Source: Xiphydria camelus (taxonomy: Eukaryota > Arthropoda > Insecta > Hymenoptera > Xiphydriidae). From it: 64,000 nt of DNA. Shown here in pieces: positions 16,500 to 46,801 of this stretch. The notes beneath the pieces were generated by a model. The model was not told the origin of the DNA, made no database searches, and saw nothing but the letters and a program-made list of their open reading frames with translations. The position numbers and the translations under genes are program-made. Position 1 is the stretch's first letter. Each line of letters opens with the position of its first letter. Location: contig OY783200.1 in the NCBI GenBank assembly GCA_963678675.1, positions 7,204,501 to 7,268,500 of the forward strand, given 5' to 3'.

Positions 16500-17912
16500 G
16501 TGACAAGGGAGATGGGATTGACTCGACTCCGGAGGTCGGAGATAGAGGTCGCTCCACCGCGTGAGAAAGATCCGATGGTCCAGGGGGATCGTCGTCAAGC
16601 CGGTCCCGTTCGTCTCGAAGTGACGGCTCGTCCCGATACACCCGTCGGAGAGCCGACGAATCGGACGGGCAAAGACGAACTTCGAGATTTCCTCGGAGGC
16701 CCTATACCGGAGCCGCCTCAGCAAGTACCGACGAGGAGGGGGGAGGTCCCCGGCGATGAAGAACGGAACGTGTCTTTTCCCGAACCGCAGGCGAGGATCA
16801 CCAACGGCCCGCAAGACCTCGGGGGGAGCGTCCTCGGAAGACTCCTCCCCGACTCCGAAGCTCGAATTCTGCCCGGAGACGCGCCCGTGCGGGGTTACAC
16901 GCCACCCACGACCTCGACGGCGTACGAGAGGCCACCGGCTACCGCAGCCCCATCGTTACGGGCAACCGCCGCTCCCTGGATACCCCTCTCATCGACGGCT
17001 ACGACCAGAGTCACGGAGTCGCTGCCTCGCACGATCGTCAGCGCATCCGTGGGAGCACCGATCGTCACACCGATCGAGACGACGATCGGGCGCCTGGAGT
17101 TCCTGGATAGGAACGCGGGATCGCCGATACCGAGGCCCAGTCTGCGACCAGCCGCCCCGGAACAGGCGCCTCCTCCTCCAGCACCGAGTCGGAGAGGGCC
17201 AGCTGAAGGGCCGGAACCCCGATCTCGCGACCAGGAGCCGCCGAGATTCCTGGCGAACGTATCGCGGCCACTCCGCGAAAGAATGGAGGGAGAGTTCGGC
17301 CAGGCCACCCAGCGCATCCTCCGAAAATACCTGGGAGAGCCGGGAGCTTTACCTCACGACCAGGACCCTCTCGGCTTTCTAGCGGACGTCTCGCGCACGA
17401 TCCGCGAGGAACTGGAGGGCGAGATCGGCCAGGCCGTCCGGCGCGTCTTGACCACGTGTTTGGATCGCCCACGACGGGACGAGAGGGAAAGAGAGGACGC
17501 TCGCCCCCGACCAACGAGCGCCGCTCCGTCCACGGCCATGGGTCAACCGAGACACAACCCTCCACGCCAGGCCGAGAGACCGATACCCGGCGAGGAAGCA
17601 CAGCGACGAGGCGGAGCCGTTACCTTCGCCCGGAGTAGCTCCCCGTTACGACCTCACGTCACCCCGCCGGACTTCCCCGGTTCAAGGATAACACAACATT
17701 CGAACGTGCGCGACCGGGCGCCGCTCGAGATGGTGTACTCGTCTCCGAGGGATCCGACCGCCATCGTCTATCGTTGGAGGCTGAGTTACGCCGATCGGCG
17801 CGACGGAAGCGCGGAGGACTTTATCGAGAAGGTCGAAGACAAGGCGGAATTCGCCCGCCTGGATCTCGATAGCCTCCTGGCCGCGATGCCGGCGATACTG
17901 GACGACTGGCCA
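16500..17912 (+). CDS. Gag-like protein of an LTR retroelement, C-terminally truncated
   Basis: A long GC-rich ORF (first ATG 16512; open upstream from a GTG at 16500). The first about 350 residues are Pro/Arg-rich and disordered, with an internal duplication reading PRFLANVSR.LRE..EGE.GQA and LGFLADVSR.IREELEGEIG. The last part, VYRWRLSYADRRDGSAEDFIEKVEDKAE, has the capsid-like signature of Ty3/gypsy Gag (a W..SF.G..G..A..FL-type motif). The frame formally runs on to 17999, but about 17912 is where Gag-like character ends. No zinc knuckle or pol follows, so the element is truncated. Confidence 0.6.
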
Positions 17913-19261
17913 CCGGGGTATGCACGTATGACACTTACAATATCGAGAACTCTCTTCGCGTGGCACAGAGGATGGAAAACTCAGCACAGGATAGGATAAC
18001 CCGCGCTGGGTATATGAGAAGGGCAGTTGAAGAAGGGAAGAAATCTTGGGCCCTTACGGATGAACTAGTGGCACCAGCCCTGTACGATGGGTTCTTACCG
18101 TACTATGATTGGTATGCCCAAGCCAAAGGCTCCATAAGGGGAACCAACATGCAGGGGTTGGTGGAGACTTTAGTTACACCGACGGTCCAGTGGGACTGGA
18201 GTCTCAATAAAGTAGACTCTGCAGGGGCTATCCCATCCCTCACCGGGGTAAGGACCCCGTCAAGCTGGTGGGCAACGACAGCTAGTAGGCATTGGGGAGC
18301 CTACAGGCTACGCGAAGCGGACGCGGGACTGTGGACCAAGGACCAAGGTGCACAGTCCCCGTTTATAGGTAGGTACAAGCAGACGGGAGATGGTCAAGAC
18401 GCTCCAGACATGGAGGCACTGATGCTGAGGCTCAACCTCCTTACGTCCGAGTGGGAGCCTACATACCAAGCCCATCCCTCGGGGACAGCCTTGAAGGGAG
18501 GGGTGTTCTGCGTGGATACACTCGGCTACCACGGCGCACTTACTGCTGCCGGAATAACCAGGGATGTGACCATGACGAACCCCGCCATTAACTGGGGGTG
18601 GAAGGTCCCCATATTTTCGAGAGATTGGCCCCGCGACCAGTTGAAATCCCTGACACTTTTGTTGGGGGTGGCCAACCACATTACAGCTTCCGACTTCCAC
18701 CCCACGACATGGCTATGTGCAGGCTTCATCAACCAGGGGGTAGCTGAACAGGCCACCCAGTACGTCCACCGCGCCCTGGTTATTGACTTGGACGAGATAG
18801 AGAGGGTAGGGGCGAAACCGGCGGGAAACGGGAAAGGGGTGAATGTCGTAGAACCCGGACATCCACCCCTATCGATCCCACAACTCGAGGCCCTTCTGGC
18901 GGAAGCCAGGCTCAGGGAGAGGGGTAGCGGTAAGTGGGGACTCGGAGGACTTCCAAACCCCCTCGGGATCCGACGCGTCAAGCCTTGGGGTGCAATCCTC
19001 AAAGGCACAGGGGACGGATGCAAATACGCGGGTGCTACGCGATTCTGGGAAGTTAGGAGCCGTGCAGATCCAGGACTTGGACCGTACACTGACGGACCCA
19101 GAACCTATGACCCAGAAGCAAGACCCCGCGGATCTTGCGAAGCTGAGGGAGAGACAGCAGCAGGCTAGACCCCCGGACATGGGGTAAGGCCAAGCCGATA
19201 TTCCCAGAACCATTTTGGGACTACAGCAGGTTCCTGCAGGCTTTTGACGAGAGGATGAAAG
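17913..19261 (+). pseudogene. Coat-protein-like ORF, candidate endogenous RNA virus
   Basis: An open frame from about 17913 (first ATG 17975) runs to 19168 and is rich in Trp, Gly, Leu and Pro. Its globular, non-repetitive composition and phrases such as NWGWKVPIFSRDWPRD and HPTTWLCAGFINQG recall capsid proteins of toti-like double-stranded RNA viruses; this is a memory-level resemblance, not a search. Near 19000 the better reading moves to another frame (ending 19187) and then to a third up to the 12.6-kb element, so there are at least two breaks near the end. It abuts Gag directly with no promoter or stop between them, in a different frame. Alternative: an unrecognised retroelement protein. 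Confidence 0.45.
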
Positions 19262-20280
19262 TAGATAAGCTATGGGGGTTCTAGCACATCAATCCGGACG
19301 GGTTGCCTACTTTCAGGGGCAAGATGGCGGGAAATTTGAATTCGCGCACCACGTGACCCAACGGAGCTCTGCCATTGGTCGAGCCCCCACTCCCAAACCC
19401 CCATCAGATGTCGCCACCGTCGGCGGCAGCCATTTTGAATTTTACGCCAACAGAGCTCCGCCATTGGTCGAACCCCCACCCACGGAGTTCCACCATTGGT
19501 TGAACCCCCACCCACGGAGCTCCACCATTGGTCGAACCCATACTCCCCAACCCCCGCCAGATGTCGCCACCATCGATGGCAGGCCATTTTGAATTTTACC
19601 CCAAGAGAGCTCCGCCATTGGTTGAACCCCCACCCACGGAGCACCACCATTGGTCGAATCCACACTCCCCTACCCCCGCCAGGTGTCGCCACCGTCGGTG
19701 GCAGGCCATTTTGAATTTTACCCCAAAAGAGCTCTGCCATTGGTCGAACCCCCACTCCCCAGGTCTCGCTCGTAACACCATCAGGCAGACCTCCACCTCG
19801 CTCGCAGCGCCATCTCGACATCGCTCGCAACGCCATCTGGCGGACCCCCACTTCGCTCGCAGTGCCTTCTCGATGACCTCCCCCACTTTGGTACCAACTT
19901 GAACGTGGTAACGCTACTGCGCACGTCCTGCTATCAAATTTCGCTGACTCGGTCTTGCTTGCACGTGCATCAAATTCCAACGCTACTGCGCACGTCCGGT
20001 CCCCGGAATCGTTGTGTCTCCGGCTATCAAATTTCGCTGACTCTCGCGTGTGCAGGCTCGGTCTTGCTCCAAGCAGCTGCAAACTTGCACGTGCATCAAA
20101 TTCCAACGCTACTGCGCACGTCCGATCCCCGGAATCGTTGTGTCTCCGGCTATCAAATTTCGCTGACTCTCGCGTGTGCCATCCAGACAGAACAGATTCC
20201 AGTTTGCACGTGGCAACGCTACTGCGCACGTCCGATTCCTGGAATTGTTGACAGACCTTGAGACATGATGACATCACTGT
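19262..20280. repeat. Left terminal repeat region of the 12.6-kb element
   Basis: Two arrays follow the 20-bp end. At 19320-19770, units of about 120-155 bp centre on CCATTTTGAATTTTACC and GAGCTCCGCCATTGG(T)(T/C)GAACCC; the CATTTTGAAT core recurs at 19431, 19585 and 19707. At 19900-20265, units contain CGCTACTGCGCACGTCCG, GGAATCGTTGTGTCTCCGGC and ATCAAATTTCGCTGACTC. The first array matches the right end in inverted orientation. Open frames across this region on both strands are products of the repeats. Confidence 0.8.
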
Positions 20281-20353
20281 CTACCCCCACTTCTCACTGT
20301 TGCTAGGCAGAATGCAGCTGAACGATTCACCCCCACCACTGAGTAGTGATTGG

Positions 20354-20395
20354 CTATAAAACCCCCAAGTCTTTGAGGTGTCGCCATCAGTCACA
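20354..20395 (+). promoter_or_regulatory. TATA plus initiator of the OB-like gene
   Basis: CTATAAAAC at about 20354 lies about 33 bases before CATCAGTCACA, an arthropod TCAGT-type initiator, which sits about 15 bases before the ATG. Similar initiators precede other genes of this element. Confidence 0.6.
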
Positions 20396-20404
20396 GCTAA
20401 GAAA

Positions 20405-20716
20405 ATGGACTTCACGAAACTCAATGAGCTCAGCAGATCAGCCGGATATTTGGAGGTTAAAAAATTCTCTGAACTAGAGGTTGGAAAGGAGTATCTGATC
20501 ACTCGAGTGAAGATGGTTACAACAAAATACGGTTTGAAGATCGTTGTCGACCTGGAGAAGAGTTTTGGAGTCTTCCTCCCATCACGAGTCAATAAACTCT
20601 TCAAGGATGCTGATGATGAGGAGTTTAAGAAGTTGGTCAAAGAGTGCAGCGAGAATAAGCTGCACTTGAAGTATCTAGGTGGAGAGTACAATTTTTTCGA
20701 GTTTTTTAGGAAATAA
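20405..20716 (+). CDS. Small OB-fold-like protein, copy 1
   Basis: 103 residues starting MDFTKLNELSRSAGYLEVKK. The ATG at 20405 is chosen because copy 2 and its surroundings start at the same residue; the frame is open a little upstream. The centre reads VGKEYLITRVKMVTTKYGLK then IVVDLE, followed by VFLPSRVNKLF and LHLKYLGG near the end. The alternating beta pattern with YxI...KYGxKxVV is what an OB-fold single-stranded-DNA-binding protein could look like, which would fit a self-replicating element; this is inference. It lies just inside the left terminal repeats and is intact. Confidence 0.65.
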   Translation: MDFTKLNELSRSAGYLEVKKFSELEVGKEYLITRVKMVTTKYGLKIVVDLEKSFGVFLPSRVNKLFKDADDEEFKKLVKECSENKLHLKYLGGEYNFFEFFRK

Positions 20717-21298
20717 ATTGTGAAACAAACTGGAGTTATGAATAAAAATTGCAAAGAAATAAATGTGTTTCATTCATTTATAACTTTAAAACCTCACCCC
20801 GTCGAAAGAAATAATTTCTCTCTCTCAACGATTGCTCATCGGTGTACTACAGAAGCGAATCTACAAATCGTCGCTCGCGATTATTTAGTGTAAGCAAGTA
20901 GATAAGACTCAAGCCGGTGAGAAGAAATGTCCAGCATCAGCATGTTAACGGCACGTGCATCCCGCTCTCCAGCCAGCGAGAAGAAATGTCCAGCGTCAGC
21001 GCGTTGACGGTACGTGCATTCCGCTCTCCAGCCGGTGAGGAGAAATGTTCAGCGTCAGCGCGTTGACGGTGCGTGCATTCGCTCATTCGTACATCTAACT
21101 GTATGAGTCATTCTACTTCAGAAGCGAACCTACGAATCGTCGCGCGAGATTGTTTTATCTATAAAACTTGATGAGGTTTGCAGCGATGCGCACAACCTGA
21201 TACTTTATTATTCTGATATGAAAAGGGCTACTAGGTCCAGCTCATCTCCTCGAGATGCATCTCATTAGTCTGCTTAAAACCGCGCCAAAGTGTAAATC
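20717..21298. repeat. Intergenic region with 59-bp tandem repeats
   Basis: 3' end of the OB-like gene (AATAAA signals near 20740-20760), then three 59-bp units starting at about 20919, 20978 and 21037 (GAGAAGAAATGTCCAGC... CCGCTCTCCAGCC). Just before them GTAGATAAGACTC echoes the element terminus. The 21230-21290 part holds CATTAGTCTG, an initiator-like site before the next gene. The whole block reappears at 45461-46029. Confidence 0.7.
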
Positions 21299-21872
21299 AT
21301 GCCGAACGCAAAATCCGACATTGACAGTACTGTAGAGGAGTTTGAACATGTGAATTATCCTGGGTTTAAATTTCGCGGGCGGTTTATAATCTGCCCGAAG
21401 ATATGGAAGATCCTCAATGACAAAAATCGCAACGCTTTGATACGGCAACTGATTGCATCAATAAAGTTAAACGGGGTTGAAGCTGACCACACAATAGAAG
21501 GAGCCGTTTATGTAATGCGTGGGAGTTTTCTAGTACCGGTAAGAGCATCAATAATATTTTCTTCTTCTTCTTGTTTTTTTTTCCTTTAACTAAAGCATGT
21601 TATTTTATATCTATTTATAGAAATTAAGGGGTCGTGCAGCGCAAAGAGCGGCTGCACAACAAGCCCGGAGGGTGGAGGAAGAGGAGGAGGAGGAGGAGGC
21701 AGCGGCGGCGGAGGAGGACGAGGCAGCGGAGGAGGAGGAGGCGGAGGAGCAGGTGGAGGTGGAGATGGAGGAAGAGGAAATAGTGGTGTTGGCGGAGGAT
21801 GGGGAGGAGATGGGTGATGAGGTGGTGGTGGAGGTGGATGAGGTGGTGGAGGGGGAGGAGGAGGAGGGGTAG
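21299..21872 (+). CDS. Spliced acidic-tail protein, copy 1
   Basis: Two exons, 21299-21538 and 21621-21872, with a GTAAGA...TTTATAG intron of 82 bases and phase 0; product 163 residues. Exon 1 encodes a compact basic domain with NYPGFKFRG, ICPKIWKILNDKNR and GAVYVMRGSFLVP. Exon 2 encodes KLRGRAAQRAAAQQARR followed by a very acidic tail of Glu/Asp/Val/Ala built from GAG/GAA runs. The second copy at 46030 keeps the same intron at the same place, which supports the splice model. Family not recognised. The acidic tail suggests a chaperone-like or DNA-mimic role, but nothing in the sequence proves this. Confidence 0.75.
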
Positions 21873-21956
21873 TTTGTAATATATTATTTTAAACATATTA
21901 TTTTAAATTTTTCTCAATTTTATTAATAAAAATATATATACAGGTTACATGCAGTT

Positions 21957-22721
21957 TTACTCCACCTCTCGGCAATAAATACAATCCTTAATCATAGGTC
22001 GCGGACCGTCATAATCGTCTCTGCCTCTCGACACCCGGTGATGTCTTCGACATCGACGACAATCGGCGATACTCTTGTTCTCGACATATTTAGCTGGTAG
22101 TCTGTCCCACGCATTGTCGATCGTGTTCGCGGCAAATACGGTGAGAAAGTCTATAGGGAGCTGGGCGATATCTTCTGCGCTCATCGAGGTGAGACTCTCC
22201 GTCTCGAAGAAAATCTTCAGGGAATGTATCAAAGATGGAGGATTACCCTTGTACTTCAGCCAGGTTTCCAAGCGTTTCACATTCTCAACGGCACAGAAAT
22301 GACCATCGGAGTAGTGGCGCTGACATCTGAATGTTGGCTCGCTGCGCAGTTTCCTCAGCGAGGGCCAACCCAGTTCATCCAAATTGACAATGGTGCACTC
22401 GGTGTACTCTTGCAACCAGACTTTCTTCTCCTCGCCCTTCACATACACCGTGGAGACGCCATGTAGATGAGGTCCGAGCACATTTTCAATCATGATGTAC
22501 GGCACGTCCCCAGAATTCCACGAAAGTCCATGGAAGTTACGTTGCAACCAGGAATTGCTGCGGTGATACATCGTAGGCAGTTCCCACCAAGGAACCGGCG
22601 GTTTGAATAGGAAAGTCGTGGCTTCCCGTGGGTCAGAGTTGAGGGTGACCACGGCAAGTTCCTTCGCCACGAATCGGTTGTGGGGCATCTGGAAGCTCTG
22701 TACGTCCACCACGACTTCCAT
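21957..22721 (-). CDS. 254-residue zinc-tailed protein, copy 1
   Basis: Intact ORF beginning MEVVVDVQSFQMPHNRFVAK. The start region has TAAATAG and a TTCAGT initiator just before the ATG. The N-terminal VVVDVQ...KELAVVTL pattern resembles the first strand and acidic residue of an RNase H-fold exonuclease (inference). The middle has a Cys/His cluster (CQRHYSDGHFCAVENVKRLE) and the C-terminus ends in CRRCRRHHR...DCIYC, two CxxC pairs typical of a zinc ribbon. The copy at 24301-25053 is clearly homologous along its whole length. Family not recognised by name. The position beside a DNA polymerase suggests nucleic-acid processing. Confidence 0.7.
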   Translation of the reverse strand: MEVVVDVQSFQMPHNRFVAKELAVVTLNSDPREATTFLFKPPVPWWELPTMYHRSNSWLQRNFHGLSWNSGDVPYIMIENVLGPHLHGVSTVYVKGEEKKVWLQEYTECTIVNLDELGWPSLRKLRSEPTFRCQRHYSDGHFCAVENVKRLETWLKYKGNPPSLIHSLKIFFETESLTSMSAEDIAQLPIDFLTVFAANTIDNAWDRLPAKYVENKSIADCRRCRRHHRVSRGRDDYDGPRPMIKDCIYCREVE

Positions 22722-22860
22722 GGTGGAACTGAACTCCTCGGAGTTATGCCAGTCTATTTACCACACCGCGAGAAATTTCTTTCAGTAGAGGTGTTATAAA
22801 TGAACTAAACACTTTTTTTTTCACCCAATTTTTATTCATAAACTCAGTTCGTTTGACAAT

Positions 22861-23173
22861 TCACTTCTTTACAAACTCGAAATAATTGTATGTGCCGCCT
22901 AGGTACTTCAAGTGCAGCTTATTCTCGCCGCATTCCTTCACAAACTTCTCAAACTCCACATCGTCACCATCCTTGAAGATCTTCTTTACTCTCGCTGGGA
23001 GGAAGACTGAGAAACTGTTTTCCAGGTCCACCACAATCTTCAGACCGTATTTCGTCGTGATCCTCTTCACTTTGGTGATCAGATACTCCTTTCCAACCTC
23101 TAGCTCGGATAATTTTTTGGTGTCCAAATATCCGGCTGATCTGCTGAGCTCGTTTAGTTTCGTGAAGTCCATC
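22861..23173 (-). CDS. Small OB-fold-like protein, copy 2
   Basis: A 103-residue ORF homologous along its whole length to the product of 20405-20716 but on the opposite strand (MDFTKLNELSRSAGYLDTKK; KYGLKIVVDLE; VFLPARVKKIF). The frame is open further upstream to 23355, but the ATG near 23173 is preferred because it aligns with copy 1. The upstream sequence is a set of three initiator-bearing repeats. Ends in Lys-Lys-stop, like copy 1. A partial duplication with inversion inside the element is the simplest origin. Confidence 0.65.
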
Positions 23174-23272
23174 CTCGTAACTGCGGCTGATAGCGGTACT
23201 CCAGAGATGCAGTGTTCTGATGGCAGTACCCCAGAGATGTGACGTTCTGATGGCGGTACCCCTGAGACATGT
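23174..23272 (-). repeat. Three about 30-bp promoter-like repeats upstream of OB-like copy 2
   Basis: Read on the minus strand, GGGGTACCGCCATCAGAACG, GGGGTACTGCCATCAGAACA and GGAGTACCGCTATCAGCCGC follow each other at about 30-bp spacing. Each contains the CATCAG initiator core seen before other genes of this element, so the core promoter itself appears multiplied. Confidence 0.6.
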
Positions 23273-23379
23273 AGTCCATTCCTACTCGGTAGTGGGAGTA
23301 AATCTCGCGCATGGCAACAGCCAATCAGGGTTTCACGTTGCGCCAGATGACGCAATGCCTTCCAAGAACTGTTTACCGC

Positions 23380-23660
23380 AATGGTGTTCCTGGAATCCTG
23401 GTGATGTCAAGGTCTGTCAACAATTCCAGGAATCGGAACTGCGCAGTAGCGGTGAAATCCTTTGTAATTCGATCCTCAGAGCAAGTCCGAACCCGCGCGC
23501 ACGGACGCTTCACGCGATAAGGCTGGTCGATTCCCCATTGCGTCAACAATTCCAGGAATCGGAAGTGAGTAGTAGCAGTATATCGTATGACGTCATCGCT
23601 CACGAGTGGAAGAACACGCGCGGAACTGCGCAGTAGCGACGAGTTCGTGCCTGTCGAGAA
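23380..23660. repeat. Internal copies of the terminal-repeat motif
   Basis: The block GTCAACAATTCCAGGAATCG followed by GAACTGCGCAGTAGCG occurs at about 23418 and 23545, partly again near 23620, and inverted at 20216-20250 in the left terminal array. The core ATTCCAGGAAT is palindromic. It lies between two divergent gene units. Confidence 0.6.
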
Positions 23661-23665
23661 GCTAT

Positions 23666-23740
23666 GACGTCATCGCGCAGGAATGCGCACCGCGGTCACG
23701 CCATCAGTCACAGTCACATCGTGCTCACGAAACGACAACA
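23666..23740 (+). promoter_or_regulatory. Core promoter shared with the polymerase gene
   Basis: CACCGCGGTCACGCCATCAG followed by TCACATCGTGCTCACGAAAC and GACAAC lies directly before the ATG. The minus-strand leader of the polymerase (30110-30165) is nearly the same, with CCATTAGTCACA as initiator. Same-strand alignment shows only a few differences over about 55 bases. Confidence 0.7.
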
Positions 23741-24021
23741 TGTCTTCCGATCAGTGCCTGAATCGTCTCGAGATAGGTTCGCATTCGAAAGATTGCAACA
23801 ATCAAGTTTTCTCAACGGAATTAATCGTCTGCTTCCTACGAGTTCCCGTGGAATGGGATAATTGGACATTCGATCGTGTTACGAGTGCAGGCTTTGTCCT
23901 ATCCGAGGCGCGGCGACTACCTTCAGGCGCGATATTTTCAATTGAAAATAAGTTTTATAAAATAATTGACGGATGTGTCACCCCCATTCCACATGCCACT
24001 GTAAGAGCACAGCAGATGTAA
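23740..24021 (+). CDS. 93-residue orphan sharing its leader with the DNA polymerase
   Basis: Starts MSSDQCLNRLEIGSHSKDCN. The first residues (MSS.QC) and the 5' leader match those of the polymerase ORF at 30110, so it has the same promoter and translation start but a different body. The body has VPVEWDNWTFDRVTSAGFVL and a basic-hydrophobic end. No domain recognised. It could be a regulatory small protein or the remnant of a recombination that put the polymerase promoter in front of another gene. Confidence 0.5.
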   Translation: MSSDQCLNRLEIGSHSKDCNNQVFSTELIVCFLRVPVEWDNWTFDRVTSAGFVLSEARRLPSGAIFSIENKFYKIIDGCVTPIPHATVRAQQM

Positions 24022-24300
24022 CCTGGGACCCTTCGCCACATCGCATTTATCACTACGAGTGTGTAAATAATTTCTGAAAAGGGTCCACAATTAAATAAAA
24101 GAGAATCAAAAAAAAATATGTGTTGATTCTGTTCTTCCTGCGAATCCTTTTGATGTTGGAATATCCTCTCGGCGTACACACACTTGCCACGCAGAAAGGC
24201 ATTTCTTCCTCTTCCGTCAACTATTCTACCATCAGGGGATCATTGTTTAAATAATGAGGCAACATTTGATTCCTTCTCCTTTTATTTGTACAAAAAAAAA

Positions 24301-25053
24301 TTAGCTATCTTGGCAATATACACAATCCTTGATCATGGGTCGCGAGTTGTCTTTGCCTCTCGGCACCCGATAATGTATGCGACATCGACGACAATCGGCG
24401 ATACTCTTGTCCTCGCTATATTTAACCGGTAGCCTGTCTCACGCATCTTCGATCGTGTTGGCGGCAAAGACGGTGAGAAAGTCTTTAGGGAGTTGGGTGA
24501 TGTCTTCGGCAGTCATCAAGGTGAGGCTCTCCGTCTCGAAGAAAATCCTCAGGGAACGTTCCAGGCATGGAGGATCATCCTTGTGCTTCAGCCAGGTTTC
24601 CAAGCGTTTTGCATTCTCAGCGGTGCAGAAATGTCCATCGGAGCCATGACGCTGACATCTGGATGTTGGATCGCTGAGCAGTTTCCTCAACGATGGGCAG
24701 CCCAGTTCATCCAAATGAACAATGGTGCACTCGGTGTACTCCCGCAACCAGGCTCTCTTCTCCGCGCCCTTTACGTTTACCGTCGAGACATCACGTAGAT
24801 GAGGTTCGAACACTTTTTTGATCATGACGTACGGCACGTCCCCAGAGTTCCACGTGAGTCCGTGAAAGTTACGTTGTAGCCAGGAATTGCAGCAGCGATA
24901 CGTCGCAGGCAGATACCACCAAGGAAATGGTGGCTTGAAGAGGAAAATCGTAGCTTCCCGTGGCTCAGAGTTGAGTGGAAGCACTGCAAGTTCCTTCGGC
25001 ACGAACCGGTTGCCGGGTATCTTGAAACCCTGTACGTCGACCACGATTTCCAT
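24301..25053 (-). pseudogene. 254-residue zinc-tailed protein, copy 2, one nonsense codon
   Basis: Homologous over its length to 21957-22721, starting MEIVVDVQGFKIPGNRFVPK. The frame is open from 25053 to 24439, is stopped by a TGA at about 24436-24438 where copy 1 has Trp, and then continues open to the TAA at 24301-24303, including the CxxC zinc-ribbon tail (CRRCRIHYR, CIYC). One base change is therefore the only visible lesion. Its promoter context (TTTCAGTCCCACC before the ATG) is preserved. Either a recent null or a read-through or assembly difference. Confidence 0.7.
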
Positions 25054-25195
25054 GGTGGGACTGAAATCCTCGGATCTCTGCCGGACTATTTACCACACCG
25101 CTGATCGGCTATACGATCGTGGAGGATGAGGCAATACGCTACAATGTTGGCGGGGGAAATTTGCACTCGCTTCAAACTTTAGACGAACGTCCACC

Positions 25196-25664
25196 GGTTC
25201 CGATTTCAACTTGGCAGGCGTCAGGCCCTGGTGATTGACAGTGAACTTGAAAGGTGTCAGCCTCTGGTGACTGACAGTGAACTTGACTGGATGTCGGGTC
25301 CCTGGCCACCGACAGTGAGCTTGGTGGGCGTCATTCCCTGATGACTGACAGTGAACTTGGTATGCGTCAGATCCTGGTGACTGACAGTGAACTTGACTGG
25401 GTGTCGGTTCCTGGTGACTGACAGTGAACTTGACTGGGTGTCGGTCCCTGGTGACTGACAGTGAACTTGGCAGGTGTCAGTCTCTGGTGACTGACAGTGA
25501 ACTTGGTAGGCGTCAGGCTCTGGTGACTGACAGTGAACTTGGTAGGCGTCAGGCTCTGGTGACTGACAGTGAACTTGGTAGGCGTCAACCCCTGGTGACT
25601 GACAGTGAACTTGGTAGGCGTCAGGCTCTGGTGACTGACAGTGAACTTGACTGGGCGTTCTGCA
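25196..25664. repeat. 36-bp minisatellite, about 13 copies
   Basis: The unit is CTCTGGTGACTGACAGTGAA followed by CTTGGTAGGCGTCAGG, repeated head to tail with point differences. The period is divisible by three, so several frames on both strands stay open and give 12-residue repeat peptides; I do not treat these as genes. It separates the zinc-tailed gene from the ATPase-like ORF. Confidence 0.85.
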
Positions 25665-25728
25665 GCTGTTACACGGAGTGCCTCCACTTTTTATCCCCGC
25701 CTTTCTTAATGATATACATTGAAACACT

Positions 25729-26142
25729 CTAAACACAAATATGGTTTGGTTCTGCACGTATTACAAAACGTGTCAACTTTTTAGTCAAATTTCTGGATGT
25801 CCTGCGTCCGAATAATTTTGAATTTTTATCGTAACACCCCGAACAATATCTTCGGATTTTGCGAATGTCTCCTTCGTTTTTTCGCAATTGGTGAACAATT
25901 CTTTTTTCAATCTGCATATTAATTTCCTCATCTGATTGTTGCGTAAGTACTCCATTGGGATGCATCACGGGGGTGGTCAAAGTGTTTGTCTTGCCGCAGT
26001 TGGATGGTTTGCAAAATACTGACCCCATGCTATTTGGAAGCAAATCACAATGTCGCTTATTCTCGGCACACCATTGCGCGAGCTCGTCAAAGTTCACCAC
26101 GGGCAGTCTGGTAGACTGTTCGGTGAATCGTAGTTCGGTCAT
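25729..26142 (-). pseudogene. Packaging-ATPase-like ORF with internal deletion
   Basis: 137 codons starting MTELRFTEQSTRLPVVNFDE. A Walker A-like motif, KPSNCGKTNTL, lies near residues 46-56 in the context typical of the A32/FtsK-type packaging ATPases of Polinton-like and adintovirus-like elements. Instead of the rest of the ATPase (Walker B etc.) the frame continues into RYCSGCYDKNSKLFGRR, a Cys-rich tail typical of another zinc-binding domain. It is much shorter than a normal ATPase (usually over 200 residues), so an in-frame deletion or fusion is likely. A TATA box (CTATATAAAC on the minus strand, about 26172) lies about 30 bases before a CCAGTCATG start. Confidence 0.5.
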
Positions 26143-26363
26143 GACTGGTGCGAGAGCTACAAGTGGTATGTTTATATAGGGATACGCGCACGCACAGCTC
26201 TCCTGGCAAATACGAGGAGAACCTTCGGATGAAGCACAGCAATCGATTGGAAGTCTTTAGTGCTGCGGTACTTGAGGTCTCTCTCTCTCGTAATGCTGGT
26301 TAGTTTTACTTAAGTAAATCCACACCTATATTTGCATCCACATACACGCACGCACACCTATAT

Positions 26364-29300
26364 TTACACATCCACATCCATATTTACATCAGTTATTCTG
26401 CAGTGCCCCCAGGGCAGAGTGTCCGTAGTGTCGGGTTGCAGGCACCTCTTGTCGTCGTGCGGACTGAGCGCAAGTTTGGTCTGCTGCACAGTCTGCACTT
26501 CGTGTAGCCTCGACCGAAAGAGGTACTGCGAGCGATGTTGTGTGGTATTTTGCCTCAAGCAGGCGACGTAGTCCTCGAAATCTATGGTTCTCGTGAGCAC
26601 CGACGTCTTGACGCCCTTGGCCTTCTTCATGCGGTCCTCGCCGTTGACCCGCACGCTGTACATTTTACTGCGGAGTCCGACGAATTCCGTCATGATCTGG
26701 CCGTTGCACTCGTCCTTCATGAGGCCGACCACCTTCTTGTTCACCAGCGGCATCTCGAAGGCGTTCTCGGTGGGGTAGTCGGACGTGTCGAAGCGCCCAA
26801 TGTGACGCTTCATCACGTCGTAGACGTCCCCACCTCGCACTTCGTAGATGAGACTGTCGGTGTCAGTGTAGAGCAACTTGCAATTGCTCTCGAAGGTCGG
26901 TATCATGAAGTCGTAGTGAAACTCGTAAACACAAGTTTTCGACAAGTCGAGTACGCAGAACCCCACGTAGATCGGCTTATTCAGCAAAACCTCGATCTTG
27001 TTGAGCTGCACGGCTACGAGGTTTTCAGCGAAAACGGCTCGGCTGTGGAAGTTGGGCTTGGCGACGAGTGCTTCGGCACCGTATCTGCCCTTCCACTTGG
27101 TTACGAGTTTGACGTCAACACGTTTGCGCACGTTCTCCATCGTCTTACCGAACACCGCGTTGTTCATGAGTTTGAACAAGTTCTTCTCAAACTCATTGCG
27201 GGCTCGTTTCCTCATACCGCTGTTCAAGTCTATGTAGCTCTTGAGCCACGGTGACTGGTCGAACTTCAGGGCTCTGTGGATGTTGGTGAGCCGTAGACCG
27301 TGCTCAAGAGCTTGCCTGAGGTTGCGGTAGTGGATGATGTAACGCGATTTCGAGTACAACGTCGTCAGAAGCTTGGACTCCTTCGAGCCCGGTGGCTTCA
27401 TCTGTTCGGGACACAGCGGTAGGTCTCGGTGGGCGTCGTGGATGGCTTCCGGATAGTCCAAGTCCACCTCAAGTATGTATCCGATGGGCGAGTCATCGGA
27501 CACATTCCACTGGAAGTCACCGGCGAGGTTCTCCACCCACTCGAAGCCACCGTACGGGAGATGTTGCGTCATCGCCCAGCCGTACAAGTTGTTCACATCG
27601 AAGTACATGAGGTACTTCGTCTCCTCTTCGGGATTGTAGTCCCTCATGTACGCGTTGTTGGCTCGGGCGTAACGGTTGCTGCACTGACTGACACCGCCTC
27701 GGATGCCCCGTTCGACGAACATGAGCATGTCGATATCGGTGAGCAGTTGCAGCTCGATTGCGGTGTACTTCAACGTGGCGTCCCACGTGAGGCCGGGTGT
27801 GGTGTAGTAATGGGCTGGATCCAAACCGTACGCTTCGAGGCAGTTGTCACGAAAGTTTTCGAAAACGTCGGCCAGCAGCAGGACGTCGGTCTTGAGGTAG
27901 AGATCCGCGTACTCGCCCAGAGTTCCCACGTTGAACTCACGCCAGACCCTCTGGGCGTGTTCGTAGTCCTCGTCGGAGATGCCGCAGCCGTTGAGACGGC
28001 TGTGAAATTGTTGCTGGGTCAGCAACTCCGTCGCATCCAGTTTGTCCCACGCGTCGAGGAACTCGTAGGGAAAGACCCCTTTCCGCCTCAGCAATGCAAA
28101 CTGCTCGGCTCGGATCTGTGGAAACTGGCTCTTGGTGATTGGCGCCTCCGCGAGGTAAGACGCCAACTTCTCCAGCGACGATGCCATGAACCGGAAGGAG
28201 TCGATGAACCGAAGAGCGATGTCGCTGCCCTTTAGATGTTTCGTGAACGAGACGTATCGCTCCATGTTCAAGGGCAGGAGGTCGATCCGACCGTCGAAGC
28301 AGGTACATATCTCCTTGATGATGAGGTGGCTGTCGTAGCCGCTGAGATTGTGGAAGACTACGGGAATGGTGCGCGAATCTTGATAATTCAGGTTACAGTC
28401 CTGGTGCGCTGCACCCCTGTATCTGCCGGTGAGATGACAGTGGTCCCGAACTCTCTTCACATCCAGCAGCGACTCCCCGCAAATGTGACACTTCTCGGCG
28501 CTGTGGAAAGCCCTCTCCTGTTCCTCCGTGAGCGGTTGCATGGGTACGGTGTGCTCGAGGACTCCTTCGACCTGCTCGACCAGCTCAGAAAGTTCACACG
28601 CGAACCATTCAGCAGGTTTCGGGCCGCGAAAGCTGTTCTAGCGGGACAGCGTGTGGTCGTAGCTACACCTCACGTAGTAACCCACGCTGAACGGTTCGTA
28701 CACTTGACAAACTCTCGTCTTGCTCGTCTGCTGCAGGTCGACGTTCTTCAGGAGACACTCGAAGTCTGCGTAGACGACAAACGGCACCCTTTCCTTGAAG
28801 TTGAAGTTCTTAAACTTCAAGGTGCTGTGCATCGGTGCAGGCATCTTGACTTTGCACCGATTCACCTGGACGCAGTCGACTTCGTGGGCTTCCAGCTTTT
28901 CAGTACTCAGGAAGTAATGTAGGCAGCGATCACAGATGTACTTCTTCACCTTTGTTCTTGAAAGTTGTGCGCTGACCAGCCGAGAGAGGTCCTTTATCCA
29001 CACGTAGTGGTAGTTGGTGTGAGTTTCATCATCCTCGTTCACCTCCTCCTCATTCGATTCCTCGTCGACGTATCGATCTTGAATCATGAGGAGATTCACA
29101 TGTTTGGTCTTCTTGTGCGAGGTGACGTGGATGGGTGCGACCGAAAATTTTTCTTTGCGCTTCAGCAGAACGTAAATGTTGATTGAGAGCTCATTCTGCT
29201 TATCAAACTTCGGGACCTCTCTCGGCGTCACTGGGAAGTCTATGCCCGCAAAGTTCAATTCGTTTTCGTACGGCTTGTACTTTGACACACGGTTGGGATG

Positions 29301-30110
29301 GTCACGCCGATCAACGGGATGCAGTGCAGAAAGGAGTGCCCACTTAAAACACTGGTCGTCGGTATTCTGCACGTTAACACAGGCCTCCTTCCTTTTGATA
29401 AACCCAGGAAGTTCCAGATAGGAGCTACCTCTCATTGGGTTGTACCGGTTCACGTTGACGGTCAAGTTGATGACGACTCGCAACGTCCAACCCGAGTCTC
29501 GCTCCTGGAATTCCTCTATTTGCCGGAGAATGGGGTCCCGCACATTCTCGATGAACCATTGTCTCAAATCGGTGGTCTGCAGGATTGGGACGTTCTTCGT
29601 GGCGAAGGTCTTCAGTTCGACGATCTCTTCGTCATTCTTGAAGATGCTGTACTCGCCCTCCAGTACAGCATTCACCTTCAACGCATTCTCCCTCTTGAGC
29701 GCGTTCTTGATGCGCGGTGTGAAGAGGGCCAGCGCGTCCTGCAGGAAGGCGGTGGGATCCAGATTTCGCAGGTTTACGATCACACCCGTGCGGATGCGTC
29801 CGTCGAACGCCGACTGGAGATCCTCCCACGAGACGCGTCTCTGCCCGCGCTGATCAAGACGTCCACCTCTCACGAGCAAGCTGTTGAGTTTTCGATTATA
29901 ACTCTTCACCTGTCGAATGGCGGCCAGGTACCGTTGTTTGCCGGCGACCGATGTTCCTTCTCGGCGCATCAATCGTCCGAGCAGCCGCAAACTCTTGACC
30001 CCTTGTCGGATCCATCGCGTGATGTTGATGGGATCGACACTCTTGCGAGCGATGAGCTCGAAAGCCTCTCGATGGGTATTCACAATATCCTTGCACTGTT
30101 CCGAAGACAT
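26364..30110 (-). pseudogene. Protein-primed family B DNA polymerase, split by one TAG
   Basis: Two same-frame ORFs (30110-28641 and 28637-26364) are separated only by the TAG at 28638-28640; in total about 1,249 codons. From the N-terminus: a basic region possibly acting as or near a terminal protein; a C2H2-like finger (CDRCLHYF...H) near residues 395-420; Exo I YADFE near 450; a C/H cluster CHICGESLL...HCHLTGRYRG near 540-560; Exo II NLSGYDSH near 590; Exo III YLKTDVLLLADVF; Pol A YFDVNNLYGWAM near 834; the Pol B-like NNAVFGKTMEN; Pol C YTDTDSLIYE near 1080; and a C-terminal KLALSPHDDKR. This organisation is that of protein-primed viral and Polinton-type polymerases. The start is supported by the shared promoter leader. 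Except for the amber codon it looks intact. Confidence 0.85.
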
Positions 30111-30175
30111 GTTGTCGTTTCGTGAGCACGATGTGACTAATGGCGTGACCGCGGTGACGTGCGGTATTTAAGTAA
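30111..30175 (-). promoter_or_regulatory. Polymerase core promoter and leader
   Basis: On the minus strand, CTTAAATACC (TATA-like), then CACCGCGGTCACGCCATTAG TCACATCG, then GACAACATG. It matches the leader of the 23740 ORF. Confidence 0.6.
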
Positions 30176-30179
30176 AGAC

Positions 30180-31907
30180 GTTTTGCGGCGGGGGTGAGGT
30201 GGGGGAGGTAAACGTGTTCGTGCCTGTCGAGAAGATATGACGTTATCGCTCGGGAATGGCGTGTGAAACTGCGTCATCGTTCAGGAAAGACTCTCGGGTT
30301 GGTAGGAACTGCGTAGTAGCGGCATATCCTTTGAAATTTGATAGCAAAATTGCTCGGAGCAAGTGCGAACTTGCACGCGCGTACCTCTTTATCAAACATT
30401 GCGTTTCAAGGAGCGATTGCTTGTCGATGATTCCAAAGCTCACCTCTTTATCGTATAATGCCGCTCAGTCGGTAACGTGATCGCGCGTACCTCTTTACCG
30501 ACTGATGCCTCTCGGTCGGTAACGTCGGTAAGCTCGAACTCTTCAGTAGCGCGAAATGACACTGCGAGTGAAGTCGGGGAGCGGTAGTTTGATCAATGGC
30601 GGAGCTCTGTCAGGGTAAAATTCAAAATGGTTGCTTTGTTCTGTCGGTAAGTTAGAGCTCCGTCGGCACCGGCTGCCCCTGAAAGCATGCTACTAGGTCG
30701 TGGCGCACTACGTCCTAACCTGCACGACTTCGTCGCTCGCGAGATGGGAGGGAGCGGGAGTACGTAGTAGCGTTGCGAGATGATGCACGCGGGCCCACGA
30801 GATGGCGCTGCGAGCGAGTGAGGTTCAGGAGTGCGGGTTCGGCCCCCTGAAAGCATGCAACCAGAACGCCACTCTGTCGGTAAGCTCGAACTCTTCAGTA
30901 GCGTTGAAATTGCGCGAAATGACGCTGCGAGTGAAGTCGGGGAGCGGAAGTTTGATCAATGGCGGAGCTCTGTCAGGGTAAAATTCAAAATGGTTGCTTT
31001 GTTCTGTCGGTAAGTTAGAGCTCCGTCGGCACCGGCTGCCCCTGAAAGCATGCAACCAGGTTGTGGCACACTACGTCCGAACCTGCACGACTTCGTCGCT
31101 CGCGAGAGGGGAAGGGGGAGGGAGTACGTAGTAGCATTACGAGATGATGCACGCGGGCCCACGAGATGGCGCTGCGAGCGAGTGAGGTCCAGGAGTGGGG
31201 GTTCGACCCCCTGAAAGCATGCAACCAGAACGCCACTTTGTCGTTAAGCTCGAACTCTTCAGTAGCGTTGAAATTGCGCGAAATGACGCTGCGAGTGAAG
31301 TCGGGGAGCGGAAGTTTGATCAATGGTGGAGCTTTGTCAGGGTAAAATTGAAAATGGTTGCTTTTCTCCGTCGGTAAATCAGAGTTCCATCGGTAGCAGC
31401 TACCCCTGAAAGCATGCAACCGAGCCGTGACGCTCTACGTCGACTGCGGGAAGGGGAGGGGAAGGGGGTGCGTAGTAGCGTTGCGAGATGATGCACGCGG
31501 GAAGTGGGGGCCCGCGAGATGGCGCTGCCGGTGAGGTCTGGATCCGCGAGATGGTGCTACCGGTGAGGTCTGGATCCGCGAGATGGCGTTGCGAGCGAGA
31601 TCGGGGTCTGCGAGATGGCGCTACCGGTGAGTTCTGAATCCGCGAGATGGCGTTGCGAGCGGGTGAGGTCGGGGTGTGGGGGTTCGACCAATGGTAGAGC
31701 TCCGGTGGTGGGGGTTCAACCAATGGTGGAGCTCTGTTGGGGTGAAATTAAAAATGGCCGCCCGTGCTCCGTCGGTAAGTCAGAGTTCCATCGGTAACAA
31801 AGCACACAACCCATCCACACTCCGTCGGTAAGTTAGAATTCCGCAACATTCAAATTTCCCGCCATTTTTGGTCACGTGGGTGGCGCCGAACCCCCATAGC
31901 TTATCTA
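30180..31907. repeat. Right terminal repeat region of the 12.6-kb element
   Basis: Units of about 352-364 bp start with CTCGAACTCTTCAGTAGCG at about 30533, 30885 and 31249; each holds GATCAATGGCGGAGCTCTGT, CAAAATGGTTGCTTTG and CCCCTGAAAGCATGCAAC. Further right (31500-31700) short units with CGAGATGGCG(C/T)T(G/A)C recur. The block near 31680-31760 (GGGGGTTCAACCAATGGTGG...) is the inverted counterpart of the left array at 19450-19750. The end is 31888-31907. Confidence 0.8.
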
Positions 31908-33675
31908 ATCATCTCATATACAAACAGATTCCATTACGGTAAAACCCAGAAAGAGTCAAAGAATAAAAGAAATTGTTCCAAAATATGAACCCGACAATAT
32001 ACAAAAAACGACTGACGACGACTTAGACCTTATACAACCCATAGACGAGGACGGTAATATAATTTCTGATAACGAATCAATCACATCGGGAGATAGCTTA
32101 GACTCATTGATTTCAAATGACGAAGATACAACTGAAAATAAAAATGACGATACAAAAGAATTACACCAAGTTGAAAAAGAAAATGAATTAAACTCAAATC
32201 TTGCAGAACATAAAGATCAAATTTGGATGAGAAAAGATAATTATGCATATTTTATAACAAACAACGGAGACCCACGAGACGAAGGCTCAAAATCACTCGC
32301 AGAAAGAAATCAGTTACCTAAATTTAAAAATCTTCAAGAAGGAACTGCTAATTCAATACAAAAAGGACATTGTTTTCACTTTGCTTTACCAATAGAAGGA
32401 ACCGAAAAGCAATCATTAACAACCACTTTTAATAATATTACTAATGTAATTCAAAGTTTACGCGAAAAAGCCGACCAATTAAAATTACGATCAATAAGCA
32501 TTGCAAAACAAAAGAAATCCTTAAAATTCCATGGGTAGATATTAAAACACAATTCAAAATTGCTTTTCCAGGATCACAAACAAAGATAATAATTTGTCAC
32601 GGAATAATTAAAAATCCACCATTTAAAGACAGGAAAAATATTATAGAAGAAGGCCACGCCTTAGCAATAGGAGGTCATAAAGGTGTTACGAAAACGTACA
32701 AAAGAATTAGACAAAGGTACTATTGGGAAAACCTTAAAGTAGATATTCAAAAATTCATTCAACAATGTTTAAGTTGCCAATTAAAAAAATTAAGAAGAGT
32801 TAAAACGAAAAATCCCATGATTATTTCTGATACACCAGGTCGAGCTTTTGACAAAATTTCTATCGATATCGTTGGCCCTATGCCAAAATCAAAAAATTGT
32901 AATGAATACATTCTAACAATTCAAGATAATTTAACAAAATATTGTATTGCCATACCATTACCAAACGCAACAGCGCCTATAATAGCAGATGCTTTTGTAA
33001 AACGATTTATATGTACATTTGGTGCTCCAAAAGCAGATCTAACAGATCAAGGTACAAATTTCTTGAGTGGAATGTTAAAAAGATTAGCGAAGCGATTTCG
33101 AATTAAACAATTTAAAACCACCGCATTCCATCCTCAATCAAACGGATCACTCGAAAGATCACACCACGTTTTAGTAGAATATCTCAAAAATTTCGTCAAT
33201 AAAGATGCAGAATGGGATGATTGGCTGGAACTCGCGACTTTTGCTTACAACACAAGCACACATGAAGGTACTGATCATACACCGTTTGAACTAGTTTTTG
33301 GACAATTAGCAAGACTACTATCCAATGATCCTATCTGCGACAACGAACAAATAGAAACCTACGACGGATATTTAATTGACTTAGTAACAAGATTACATGA
33401 TATCCAAGAAGTAGCTAAACAAAAACTTATAAGTTCAATTCAAATCAAAGAAATATTACGATAGAAAAATCAATCCTCAAACATTCAAAGTAGGCGATTA
33501 TGTATTCTTATTAAAAGGAATTAAATCAGGAAAATTTGGTGATCAATATACAGGACCACATGAAGTCTTAGAAATTATAAATAAAACAAATGTAAAAATT
33601 AGAATTAAGAAAAATACAAAAATAGTCCACATCAATAGATTACGAATATCACACATAAAACCAGACCAAAACTAA
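31908..33675 (+). pseudogene. Ty3/gypsy pol 3' part: linker and integrase
   Basis: A charged linker (32107-32538 ORF) is followed, after a frameshift near 32525, by the integrase: an H2C2 zinc domain (GHKGVTKTYKRIRQRYYW...CLSC) at about 32665-32780 and the DDE core with FDKISIDIVGPM (first Asp), TDQGTNFLSG (second Asp) and HPQSNGSLERSHH (Glu). A second frameshift near 33455 precedes the C-terminal domain (FKVGDYVFLLKG; RLRISHIK), which stops near 33675. It would have integrated the element's cDNA in the nucleus. Now broken. Confidence 0.85.
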
Positions 33676-42003: not shown

Positions 42004-43749
42004 GTGTTATTAGGGTACTGTAACGCGTAATGATTGCGAAGCCATGCATAACACCGGCATGACGACGAAAGCGGGCACACTAATAACAAACCTTAAAGTA
42101 AATAGCACGACAGTAAGAAGCATTACATTTGCCGGAATCATAGATTCAGATAGAAGCTGCAGAGGAGGATATTATTCGGACATTACAGGAACCTGGGATA
42201 ACGTCGTAGTTGACGGATACATAAAAATTACACTAGTTCAATACGAAGCAAACATAAAATTAAATACGAACGAAATTATATTAAATTCAGGAATCAAATG
42301 CTCCTTAACAGCAACAACATGCGTCGACTATGAAGGAGGATACACTTTCTGGAATAATTATCCAACCGACGACTGTACCTTCGACCGATATCAAATATTA
42401 TACCACGGAATAGCAGATAAGATTAAACCCAACGAACTAAACGAAAAAACTACATTTTCCGTTTTCTATGGCGAAGTCACTTTTATATACTCAATAATAG
42501 GTACATTCAGAATATGCGGATCGATCTACTATAGAACAGAACATCCGAAACTAGTCATCTACGAGACACAACACGGTGACAATCCCACGAAACCAAATAA
42601 AATAACAACACAAAATTTAGATATGTTTACCTACATCAATTCAAAATTCATTTACGTAGAAAGACACACCAGAAATCAACTAACTCAAATTTACCACGAC
42701 ATGTTGCAAAAACAATGTAATCTAGAAAGGAAAATATTAACAAACGCATTATCAATAGCACTCCAATCCCCGGACGAATTTGCTCTAAGAACAATGAAAA
42801 GCACGGGCTACATGTCACTAATAGCAGGCGAAGTAATACACATAATAAAATGCATACCAGTAGAAGTAACAATACGAGATACAAAAGAATGCTACAGTCA
42901 ACTACCAGTATGGTACATGAACGACACATACTTCATAGCCCCCAGAACACATATACTAATGAGAGTAGGCACACAGATAACATGCAACAAATTAGCACCA
43001 CCAATGTACCTCATAAATAACAATTGGTACAGAAAATCACCACATTTAGATGAAATACAAGCACCACAAATACTAGGACCGGAAACAAAACCCACATGGA
43101 AATATAAAAATCCAGCCTCATTAGCCACAAGCGGAATATATACCACAGCAGAATTGCAAAAACTCAGAGATCACATTATGTTCCCGGCAGAGAAACCGGC
43201 AATTATTAGCAACATTGCAAGGGGAATGACCGGTAGAGACATTGCAGAAAATGGTATGTCAATATCAAAATTTTTAGATGAAAACACCATTCATAAAATT
43301 GCCGAAAATACGTGGAATAAAATGTGGTCTAGCTTCTTAACATTCGGCACAGCGAGCGCAGGATTCCTAGGAATTATATTTATATTCCGATTAATTAAAT
43401 TAATTGCGGACACTATTGTACACGGATACGCGCTACATACGATATACGGATGGTCCATCCATCTACTTGGTGCCATATGGGACTCAGCAACCTACCTATT
43501 ATTGCACTTGGGAAAAACCAAACAACAACAAAAAGATGCACATACAGAGTACGAATTAACACTTCAACATCACCCAAACGAACATTCCTCAACCCAACCC
43601 GAATCCCATCCATCAACACTTTACCCTCCCATTGCCCCACCTTCAAACGATACCATTCAACAAAGAACAAATACATATCCCATATAATCATGAACAAACT
43701 CCCTAAACATCCTAATCACCAATCCTCTCTTTTCAACATTCGTTAAGAG

Positions 43750-45460: not shown

Positions 45461-46564
45461 AAATCGTGAAACAAACTGAAGTTATGAATAAAAATTGCAA
45501 AGAAATAAATGTGTTTCATTCATTTATAACTTCAAAACCTCACCCCGTCGAAAGAAATAATTTCCCTCTCTCAACGATTGCTCATCGGTGTACTACAGAA
45601 GCGAATCTACAAATCGTCGCTCGCGATTATTTAGTGTAAGCAAGTAGATAAGACTCAAACCGGCGTGTTAACGGTACGTGCATCCCGCTCTCCAGCCGGC
45701 GAGAAGAAATGTCCAGCGTCAGCGCGTTGACGGTACATGCATTCCGCTCTCCAGCCGGTGAGGCGAAATGTTCAGCGTCAGCGCGTTGACGGTACGTGCA
45801 TTCGCTCATTCGTACATCTAACTGTATGAGTCATTCTACTTCAGAAGCGAACCTACGAATCGTTGCGCGAGATTGTTTTGTCTATAAAACTCGATGAGGT
45901 TTGCAGCGATGTGCACAACCTGATACTCTTTATTCTGATCTGAAAAGGGCTACTAGGTCCAGCTCATCTCCTCGAGATGCGACTCATTAGTCTGCTTAGA
46001 GCCGTGCCTGAGTAGGTATAAATCGAATCATGCCGAACGCGCCGTCTGATAGTGATTATAGTGTGGACGAGTACGAAGGTATAAACTACCCGGGGTTCAA
46101 ATTTCGCGGGCAGTCTTTTATCTGCCCGAAGATATGGAAAATCCTCGGCGATAAAAAACGTGAAACTTTGAGAAAGCAGCTAATAAAATCAGTGAAAATA
46201 AACGGGGTCCAAGCTGACCACCAGATAGATGGGGCTGTTTATGTAATGCGTGGGAGTTTTTTGGTACCGGTAAGAGCATCAATAATACTTTCTTCTTCTT
46301 TTTTTCCTTTAACTAAAGCATGTTATTTTATATCTATTTATAGAAATTAAGGGGTCGTGCAGCACAACGAGCGGCTGCACATCAAGCCGAGAGGGTGGAG
46401 GAAGAGGAGGAGGAGGAGGAGGAGGAGGAGGCGGCGGAGGAGCAGGAGGAGGTGGTGGTGGAGGTGGATGAGGTGGGGGAGGAGGAGGAGGAGGGATAGT
46501 TTTTTAATATAACAATATACTTTTACAATACTTTTTATACATTTTATTAATAAAAAAAATATAT
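45461..46564 (+). mobile_element. Fragment of a second copy of the 12.6-kb element
   Basis: From the 3' untranslated region of the OB-like gene (AAATCGTGAAACAAACTGAA at 45461; compare 20713) through the 59-bp repeats (one unit fewer) to the spliced acidic-tail gene. High similarity to 20713-21900. The left edge is exactly the end of LTR A, the right edge is near 46564. So the LTR element inserted into, or recombined with, another copy. Confidence 0.85.
46030..46499 (+). CDS. Spliced acidic-tail protein, copy 2
   Basis: Exons 46030-46269 and 46344-46499 with the same GTAAGA...TTTATAG intron as copy 1; 131 residues. Exon 1 (YEGINYPGFKFRG, ICPKIWKILGDKKRE, GAVYVMRGSFLVP) is well conserved with copy 1 although many codons differ, which suggests selection on the protein. 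The acidic tail is shorter because of fewer GAG units. Family not recognised. Confidence 0.75.
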
Positions 46565-46801
46565 ATGTAAAAGGAAAACCCTTTCACTTAGAGGCTGTGG
46601 TGGATGAAAGCCTACACTCTCTCTCTGCCGTACCGACCGGTACACTATTAGACTTTTAGTGGAGAAAGAGAGAAACGTGGAAGTCAGAGCATTGTTTTCG
46701 ATTCCTGTTTATAGGTTAGAAATGAATTACTTTATTCTATTATTCGTTATCTGTTTATATTTTTATGTGTTGCAAATAAATAAAACCCTGTTTATATAGG
46801 C
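46565..46801 (+). repeat. Possible 5' LTR of the decayed gypsy element
   Basis: TGTAAAAGG...TATAGGCA, about 237 bp, with AATAAATAAAACC near 46776, followed by TGGCTCTATCTCAC that could be a primer-binding site. No partner LTR is in the window. Confidence 0.3.

Follow-up and report, generated by a model that had tools for sequence, protein, structure and literature searches.

Background

Polinton/Maverick elements bring together in one element a DNA polymerase B (PolB), an rve integrase, an A32-type packaging ATPase and a double-jelly-roll (DJR) capsid protein. Among vertebrates, the signature of these elements, as given in PMC8097293, consists of 6-bp duplications together with ends of the type (AGT)2//(ACT)2 or (AG)3//(CT)3, and PMC6035795 already documents their abundance in wasps. 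Here we report on a locus of this kind in the hymenopteran Xiphydria camelus, contained in a 64,000-nucleotide (nt) stretch of contig OY783200.1 (C28 in the locus names below; positions 7,204,501 to 7,268,500, hereafter "the window"; all coordinates without a locus name are those of the window). The element of interest has positions 19260 and 31909 as its outermost bases.

An earlier note made from the sequence alone had regarded this element as either a degraded Polinton relative or a distinct lineage moving by another route. We conclude, with a probability of roughly 0.9, that the region is what remains of one copy of a high-copy Polinton/Maverick element of the adintovirus type, a copy that has decayed, suffered internal deletions and recombined. 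This family is already known and the remnant in the window is an ordinary one; a plain instance of decay and module exchange among Polintons takes the place of the claimed new replicon class.

Complete relatives in the same genome

The 357-Mb genome of X. camelus holds at least 91 PolB matches and at least 106 matches to the capsid gene; 15 of the 91 PolB matches, as read from the match table, have an open frame of at least 1150 amino acids (aa) that is free of stops within the match. Twenty stretches around ten PolB loci were fetched and searched piece by piece, with 22 pieces entering the later scans. Integrase, p157, p290, ATPase, phospholipase and penton-like genes accompany PolB in four of the ten loci. 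The capsid gene and a 254-aa gene discussed below lie within the fetched piece in three of these; at the fourth, C6:9.37M, PolB is split by an insertion, and the genome listings place both genes beyond the fetched piece. The label "penton-like" is given to one protein from its gene position, and this protein has no Pfam match. The copy at G000:C24:7471831-7487506 (C24) carries integrase, capsid, ATPase, phospholipase, PolB, 254-aa, OB-like and acidic genes between 6-bp duplications, with Pfam matches to a DJR-like domain (PF21738, E 3e-121), Phospholip_A2_4 (E 3.6e-11), Pox_A32 (E 2e-07) and rve (E 1.8e-11).

Both ends were found for seven copies (two full, four capsid-less, and C17, counted for its ends, its interior not having been fetched), and all seven are flanked by perfect 6-bp duplications: GGCCTA, GAGACA, AGAGTT, TAACTC, AATGTG and TATTTC, with TCGAGG at C17. 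The arms of six two-ended copies align along their full extent (about 600-930 bp, 94-99% identity), and the relatives' ends begin with AGTAG, resembling the (AGT)2//(ACT)2 motif described for vertebrates in PMC8097293. A single end, within at most 4 mismatches, was recovered at C10:33.54M, C28:7.34M, C21:14.84M and C6:9.37M (4 of the 10 loci, outside the count of seven), and the tenth locus, C21:14.84M, showed only PolB and the 93-aa gene.

These complete relatives would exist as linear DNA replicated by PolB, probably by protein priming, and would be inserted by a retroviral-type integrase leaving a 6-bp duplication; they encode both a capsid and a packaging ATPase. Their content bears directly on the possibility that insects harbour a separate replicon class that moves in its own way, a reading suggested by the missing integrase and the scarcity of capsid sequence in the window element. 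The same genes lie within complete Polintons that have integrase and capsid, in the same genome, and we consider a separate class extremely improbable. The earlier note could not place the small proteins with known Polinton or adintovirus genes, and had itself said that a full copy with integrase and capsid would make the element an ordinary one; C24 is such a copy, and its content shows that all the small gene classes except the 93-aa gene occur in a full Polinton. In view of full copies with integrase and capsid, a lineage moving by another route is likewise not supported.

Decay of the window copy

The PolB gene of the window element (26364-30110, minus strand), of the protein-primed type, is divided by an in-frame TAG at 28638-28640 into one open piece of 725 aa and another of 490 aa, both in the same frame. 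DNA_pol_B_2 (PF03175) is matched in the C-terminal piece (E 2.8e-27), so the family B polymerase reported earlier is present, though not intact. Comparison of the N-terminal piece with 8 relatives gives ratios of nonsynonymous to synonymous substitution (dN/dS) of 0.10-0.28, below 1. Among the best 120 listed of 7975 protein candidates scored, the top named matches are hymenopteran (Venturia canescens 68%, Neodiprion lecontei 66%, Leptopilina boulardi 64%), and one fly, Hermetia illucens (60%), is also listed.

Of the capsid gene there remains the 3' tail (25098-25209, minus strand), covering residues 371-407 of the double-jelly-roll major capsid protein in two frames, with E 2.8e-05 against a best capsid E of 0.025 in 20 block shuffles; no capsid sequence beyond these residues was found in the element. 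The packaging ATPase of FtsK/A32 type is represented by its start, residues 14-91 of 263 (25948-26178, minus strand, E 1.9e-32), which is inverted relative to four full copies. A 36-bp tandem repeat of about 12 copies (25208-25649) lies at the deletion edge, and the edge at 25208 is visible at the DNA level against three full copies. Penton-like, phospholipase, p290 and p157 genes gave no match up to E 5 within the element, and the best integrase match inside 19260-31909 reaches only E 0.42; a better one at 32.9-33.4 kb belongs to a neighbouring long terminal repeat (LTR) element. The statement that neither integrase nor capsid is recognisable in the element thus holds for the integrase and has to be corrected for the capsid, and the broader proposition that neither capsid nor ATPase is present is ruled out by the two fragments. 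With complete relatives in the same genome carrying the missing genes and the window retaining capsid and ATPase remnants, the description as a degraded Polinton relative is upheld. The window copy has lost its integrase, penton-like gene, phospholipase and most of its capsid and ATPase sequence, and has gained the PolB stop.

Decay is also apparent at the termini. The two ends share an exact 18-nt inverted match, AGATAAGCTATGGGGGTT, as had been noticed. The long terminal arrays had been thought to match each other in inverted orientation, but they do not form one terminal inverted repeat: the best mutual match is offset (left 322-415 versus right 150-243), and an end-to-end match, which was looked for in the window copy, was not found. 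The left terminal region (19260-20280) has the arm type seen at both ends of C17 and resembles the C6:12.28M and C17 copies, while the right terminal region (31654-31909) is a C24-type arm with altered outermost bases, so that two subfamilies are represented. A 364-bp tandem repeat of about 2.5 copies occupies 30549-31441. The 6-bp target duplication is absent, the flanks reading GATGAA and CATCTC. Lacking duplication and matching arms, the window copy is assigned to the family as a derived remnant rather than as a working member, and it is probably immobile now. Arms of two subfamilies would most simply have arisen by ectopic or replication-time recombination between copies.

The mixed arms and absent duplication, together with the differing composition of the flanks (GC-rich on the left; AT-rich, with an LTR-type integrase, on the right), might also be expected if the assembly had joined two Polinton copies. 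Against such an artefact, the window lies inside a 25.5-Mb contig of a genome assembled in 38 contigs, and the stop codons and deletions are distributed across the element; we regard it as quite improbable.

Capsid-less derivatives and module exchange

Five of the ten loci (C1:18.65M, C14:26.48M, C6:12.28M, C29:16.80M and C28:7.34M) are without capsid, penton-like gene and phospholipase. ATPase and PolB share a strand in these five derivatives, whereas they lie on opposite strands in the four full copies. The integrase is present only in pieces in four of the five and is full-length in C29:16.80M. Both ends and perfect duplications are found in all but C28:7.34M, which indicates that such derivatives moved as units, presumably mobilised by integrase from full copies. 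C1:18.65M and C14:26.48M have open PolB frames of 1311 aa. The ATPase gene carries an internal stop in all three derivatives tested, and p290 has an open frame in each of the four tested.

Identities along the copies vary sharply from module to module. C24 and C1:13.88M show 95.5-99.2% identity in the stretch that runs from the integrase through the capsid gene and closes with the 254-aa gene, and 95.7% in the 3' part of PolB; identity falls to 91.2% for the N-terminal PolB piece and to 59% over the first 300 terminal bp. Similarly, C1:18.65M and C14:26.48M have identical ATPase genes and 99.9% identical p290 genes, with an OB-like gene at 68.6% and a differing N-terminal PolB piece, and the OB-like gene of C14:26.48M is 99.7% identical to that of C10:33.54M. 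Judged by these similarities, modules have been exchanged between copies. Given the ATPase identity and the divergence of PolB and the OB-like gene in this pair, selection on PolB in the derivatives is inseparable from recombination.

PolB distance is correlated with the distance of the adjacent 70 terminal bases among 10 copies (Mantel r 0.56, P 0.010), and the correlation persists when the C10/C1:18/C14 group is left out (r 0.51, P 0.0008). This would fit a PolB that recognises its own end; the same result would be expected if it merely reflected how near PolB lies to that end.

Several considerations weigh against our account of the window copy. The recombination is deduced from similarity rather than seen. 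At C29:16395606-16401695, two matches to the 254-aa protein (91% and 74%) and a PolB match stand in an order and at spacings like those of the window, so that both loci may have inherited the rearranged layout from a common copy, and this layout may have moved. C1:13.88M, a full copy, contains the 254-aa gene and is without an OB-like or acidic gene (best E 0.94); this lack, together with the recovery of the acidic gene from just one of the 22 fetched pieces and of the 93-aa gene likewise from one, means that the small genes do not form a constant complement.

The layout of the window copy could be that of a mobile capsid-less derivative that used the integrase of complete copies and later lost its target duplication. 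Four other capsid-less derivatives (C1:18.65M, C14:26.48M, C6:12.28M and C29:16.80M) did move as units with perfect 6-bp duplications, a truncated piece of the 254-aa gene is common to nine loci, and the locus on C29 at 16.39M has the similar order and spacing just described. The window copy itself, however, has no duplication, non-matching arms and an interrupted PolB, and at C29:16.39M, where two 2.5-kb pieces were read, the left arm is 92.8% identical to that of the window copy, no right end was found, and a motif search found neither end. We consider a formerly mobile layout unlikely, and favour the decayed recombinant copy.

A Maelstrom-like gene beside the capsid gene

The 254-aa protein is encoded twice in the element, once in an open copy (21957-22721, minus strand) and once in a copy with one in-frame TGA (24307-25053, minus strand), the two being 75% identical. 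Its predicted model has a DnaQ-like fold with the zinc residues of Maelstrom at nearly equal spacing, and residues E21, C133, H136, C143 and Q8 are invariant in all 11 aligned proteins, five of which come from the X. camelus genome. The family thus combines the two features sought as a test for MAEL, the ECHC zinc residues and the loss of DEDD catalytic residues. The D-x-Q...E spacing of the protein equals that of Bombyx D122-x-N124...E137 (numbering from PMC4408791); an ECHC set is likewise present in the Lassa nucleoprotein (PMC4408791). In contrast to these likenesses, other DnaQ folds score equal or higher against the model, none of 8 family members matches Pfam MAEL at E 10, profiles of the family matched no Maelstrom chain in PDB, and Pfam searches of the window proteins matched no HMG box. 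As a sequence match to the MAEL family is absent, we call the protein Maelstrom-like only.

Of 36 near-complete capsid matches (those covering at least 399 of 417 residues, out of 106), 29 are followed by a Maelstrom-like gene that begins 26 or 29 nt behind the capsid gene. Some Maelstrom-like matches, namely short pieces and those of the truncated derivative family, did not enter this count, an omission that can only lower it. Nine loci have one truncated Maelstrom-like piece in common; C1:18.65M and C14:26.48M are the two of these that were fetched. Beyond X. camelus, an uncharacterised protein of Drosophila-associated adintovirus 2 matches the model at 26% identity (Foldseek E 1.2e-12), as do the ichnovirus proteins GfV-D6-ORF1, GfV-B38-ORF1 and AsIV-cont00151-ORF1 at 33-36% identity (Foldseek E 1.1e-12 to 3.7e-09). 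The latter belong to a wasp symbiotic virus rather than to a Polinton, and a look-up of these open reading frames (ORFs) yielded no function.

A speculative scheme would have insect Polintons and adintoviruses, as well as ichnoviruses, carry a catalytically dead, RNA-binding protein of Maelstrom type, encoded beside the capsid gene, that counters host silencing by PIWI-interacting RNAs (piRNAs), with the capsid-less derivatives that keep PolB acting as satellites of complete copies; we think it doubtful as a whole. The gene's place behind the capsid gene and its likeness to adintovirus and ichnovirus proteins nevertheless make it testable whether the virus-like transposons of wasps encode a protein that mimics a piRNA factor of the host, and this gene is the lead most worth pursuing.

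Small genes and a shared promoter-like motif

The remaining genes of the element are small. An OB-like protein is encoded by a first copy of 103 aa (20405-20716, plus strand) and a second copy (22861-23175, minus strand) that are 81% identical; between them lies a gene for an acidic-tail protein (21299-21872, plus strand) with a putative intron at about 21539-21620, suggested by splice-like signals. A partial second copy of this region, comprising the 3' flank of the OB-like gene and the acidic-tail gene, stands as an isolated fragment at 45461-46565 (plus strand), 86% identical to 20715-21771. Taken with the two copies of the 254-aa gene, this agrees with the earlier observation that the small genes are duplicated. 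The 93-aa protein (23741-24021, plus strand) has one relative, at L027 (68%).

No match to the OB-like protein was found among 5.8 billion proteins, Pfam gave two weak DUF4898 matches (17.2 and 18.3 bits versus a cut-off of 25), and a PHROGs search gave nothing useful. An OB-fold assignment by structure was rejected: the predicted model has a pLDDT (confidence score) of 55.8 and no PDB match below E 0.39. The fold is therefore not established, and "OB-like" is only a reading of the sequence and its predicted strands.

A promoter-like motif, CGCCATCAGTCACA, is found at 20382-20395 (plus strand), with TATAAA beginning 27 nt upstream and further exact sites at 23699 (plus strand) and 30132 (minus strand). 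The window has exactly three exact sites of CGCCATYAGTCACA, which accompany the first OB-like gene, the 93-aa gene and PolB; the number rises to four when up to 2 mismatches are allowed, versus 0.45 expected. With at most 1 mismatch, there are 8 sites in total in the 22 pieces, and 6 of the 10 other copies have the motif 32-37 nt ahead of PolB; 50 scrambled motifs gave a mean of 0.02 sites and a maximum of 1 in the same pieces. TATA plus initiator is a core promoter architecture of arthropods, and CGCCATYAGTCACA with TATAAA would fit a putative promoter of this kind.

Neighbouring features of the window

Directly left of the element, at 16500-19168 (plus strand), lies a GC-rich (about 60%) unit of two ORFs of 499 and 402 aa, without a Pfam match, the first of which is gag-like by eye. 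Amid LTR-retrotransposon-like genes, an open frame of 547 aa at 42044-43687 (plus strand) matches the Monjiviricetes fusion glycoprotein (PF24664, E 3.3e-197) and is probably a captured viral envelope gene. A 129-bp tandem repeat (3.9 copies, 93% matches) occupies 62983-63481.

Comparison with known systems

A distant comparison is with L001, a Polinton-like virus contig from IMG/VR found in the PolB scan, which has an integrase, an ATPase-like gene and a PolB (37% to the query); between its proteins and those of the full copies, blastp at E 0.05 matched the integrases alone, and the other PolB, Maelstrom-like and capsid scans of viral contigs yielded no relative. Closer is the Megastigmus wasp adintovirus, with whose PolB that of the window is collinear, at 44% identity in the N-terminal piece, where an adintovirus OTU-like domain might be expected and Pfam OTU is not matched, and at 61% in the C-terminal piece. 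The C24 integrase has a weak chromodomain match (E 0.0031, 17.8 bits versus a cut-off of 25.1). From hymenopteran Polinton/Maverick elements the window copy differs in being without an integrase, most capsid and ATPase sequence, matching arms and a target duplication. Its relatives, in contrast, resemble them in PolB, rve integrase, A32-type ATPase, DJR capsid, 6-bp duplications and long terminal inverted repeats, and the defining set of four genes is united in C24 and in 3 of the other 9 loci.

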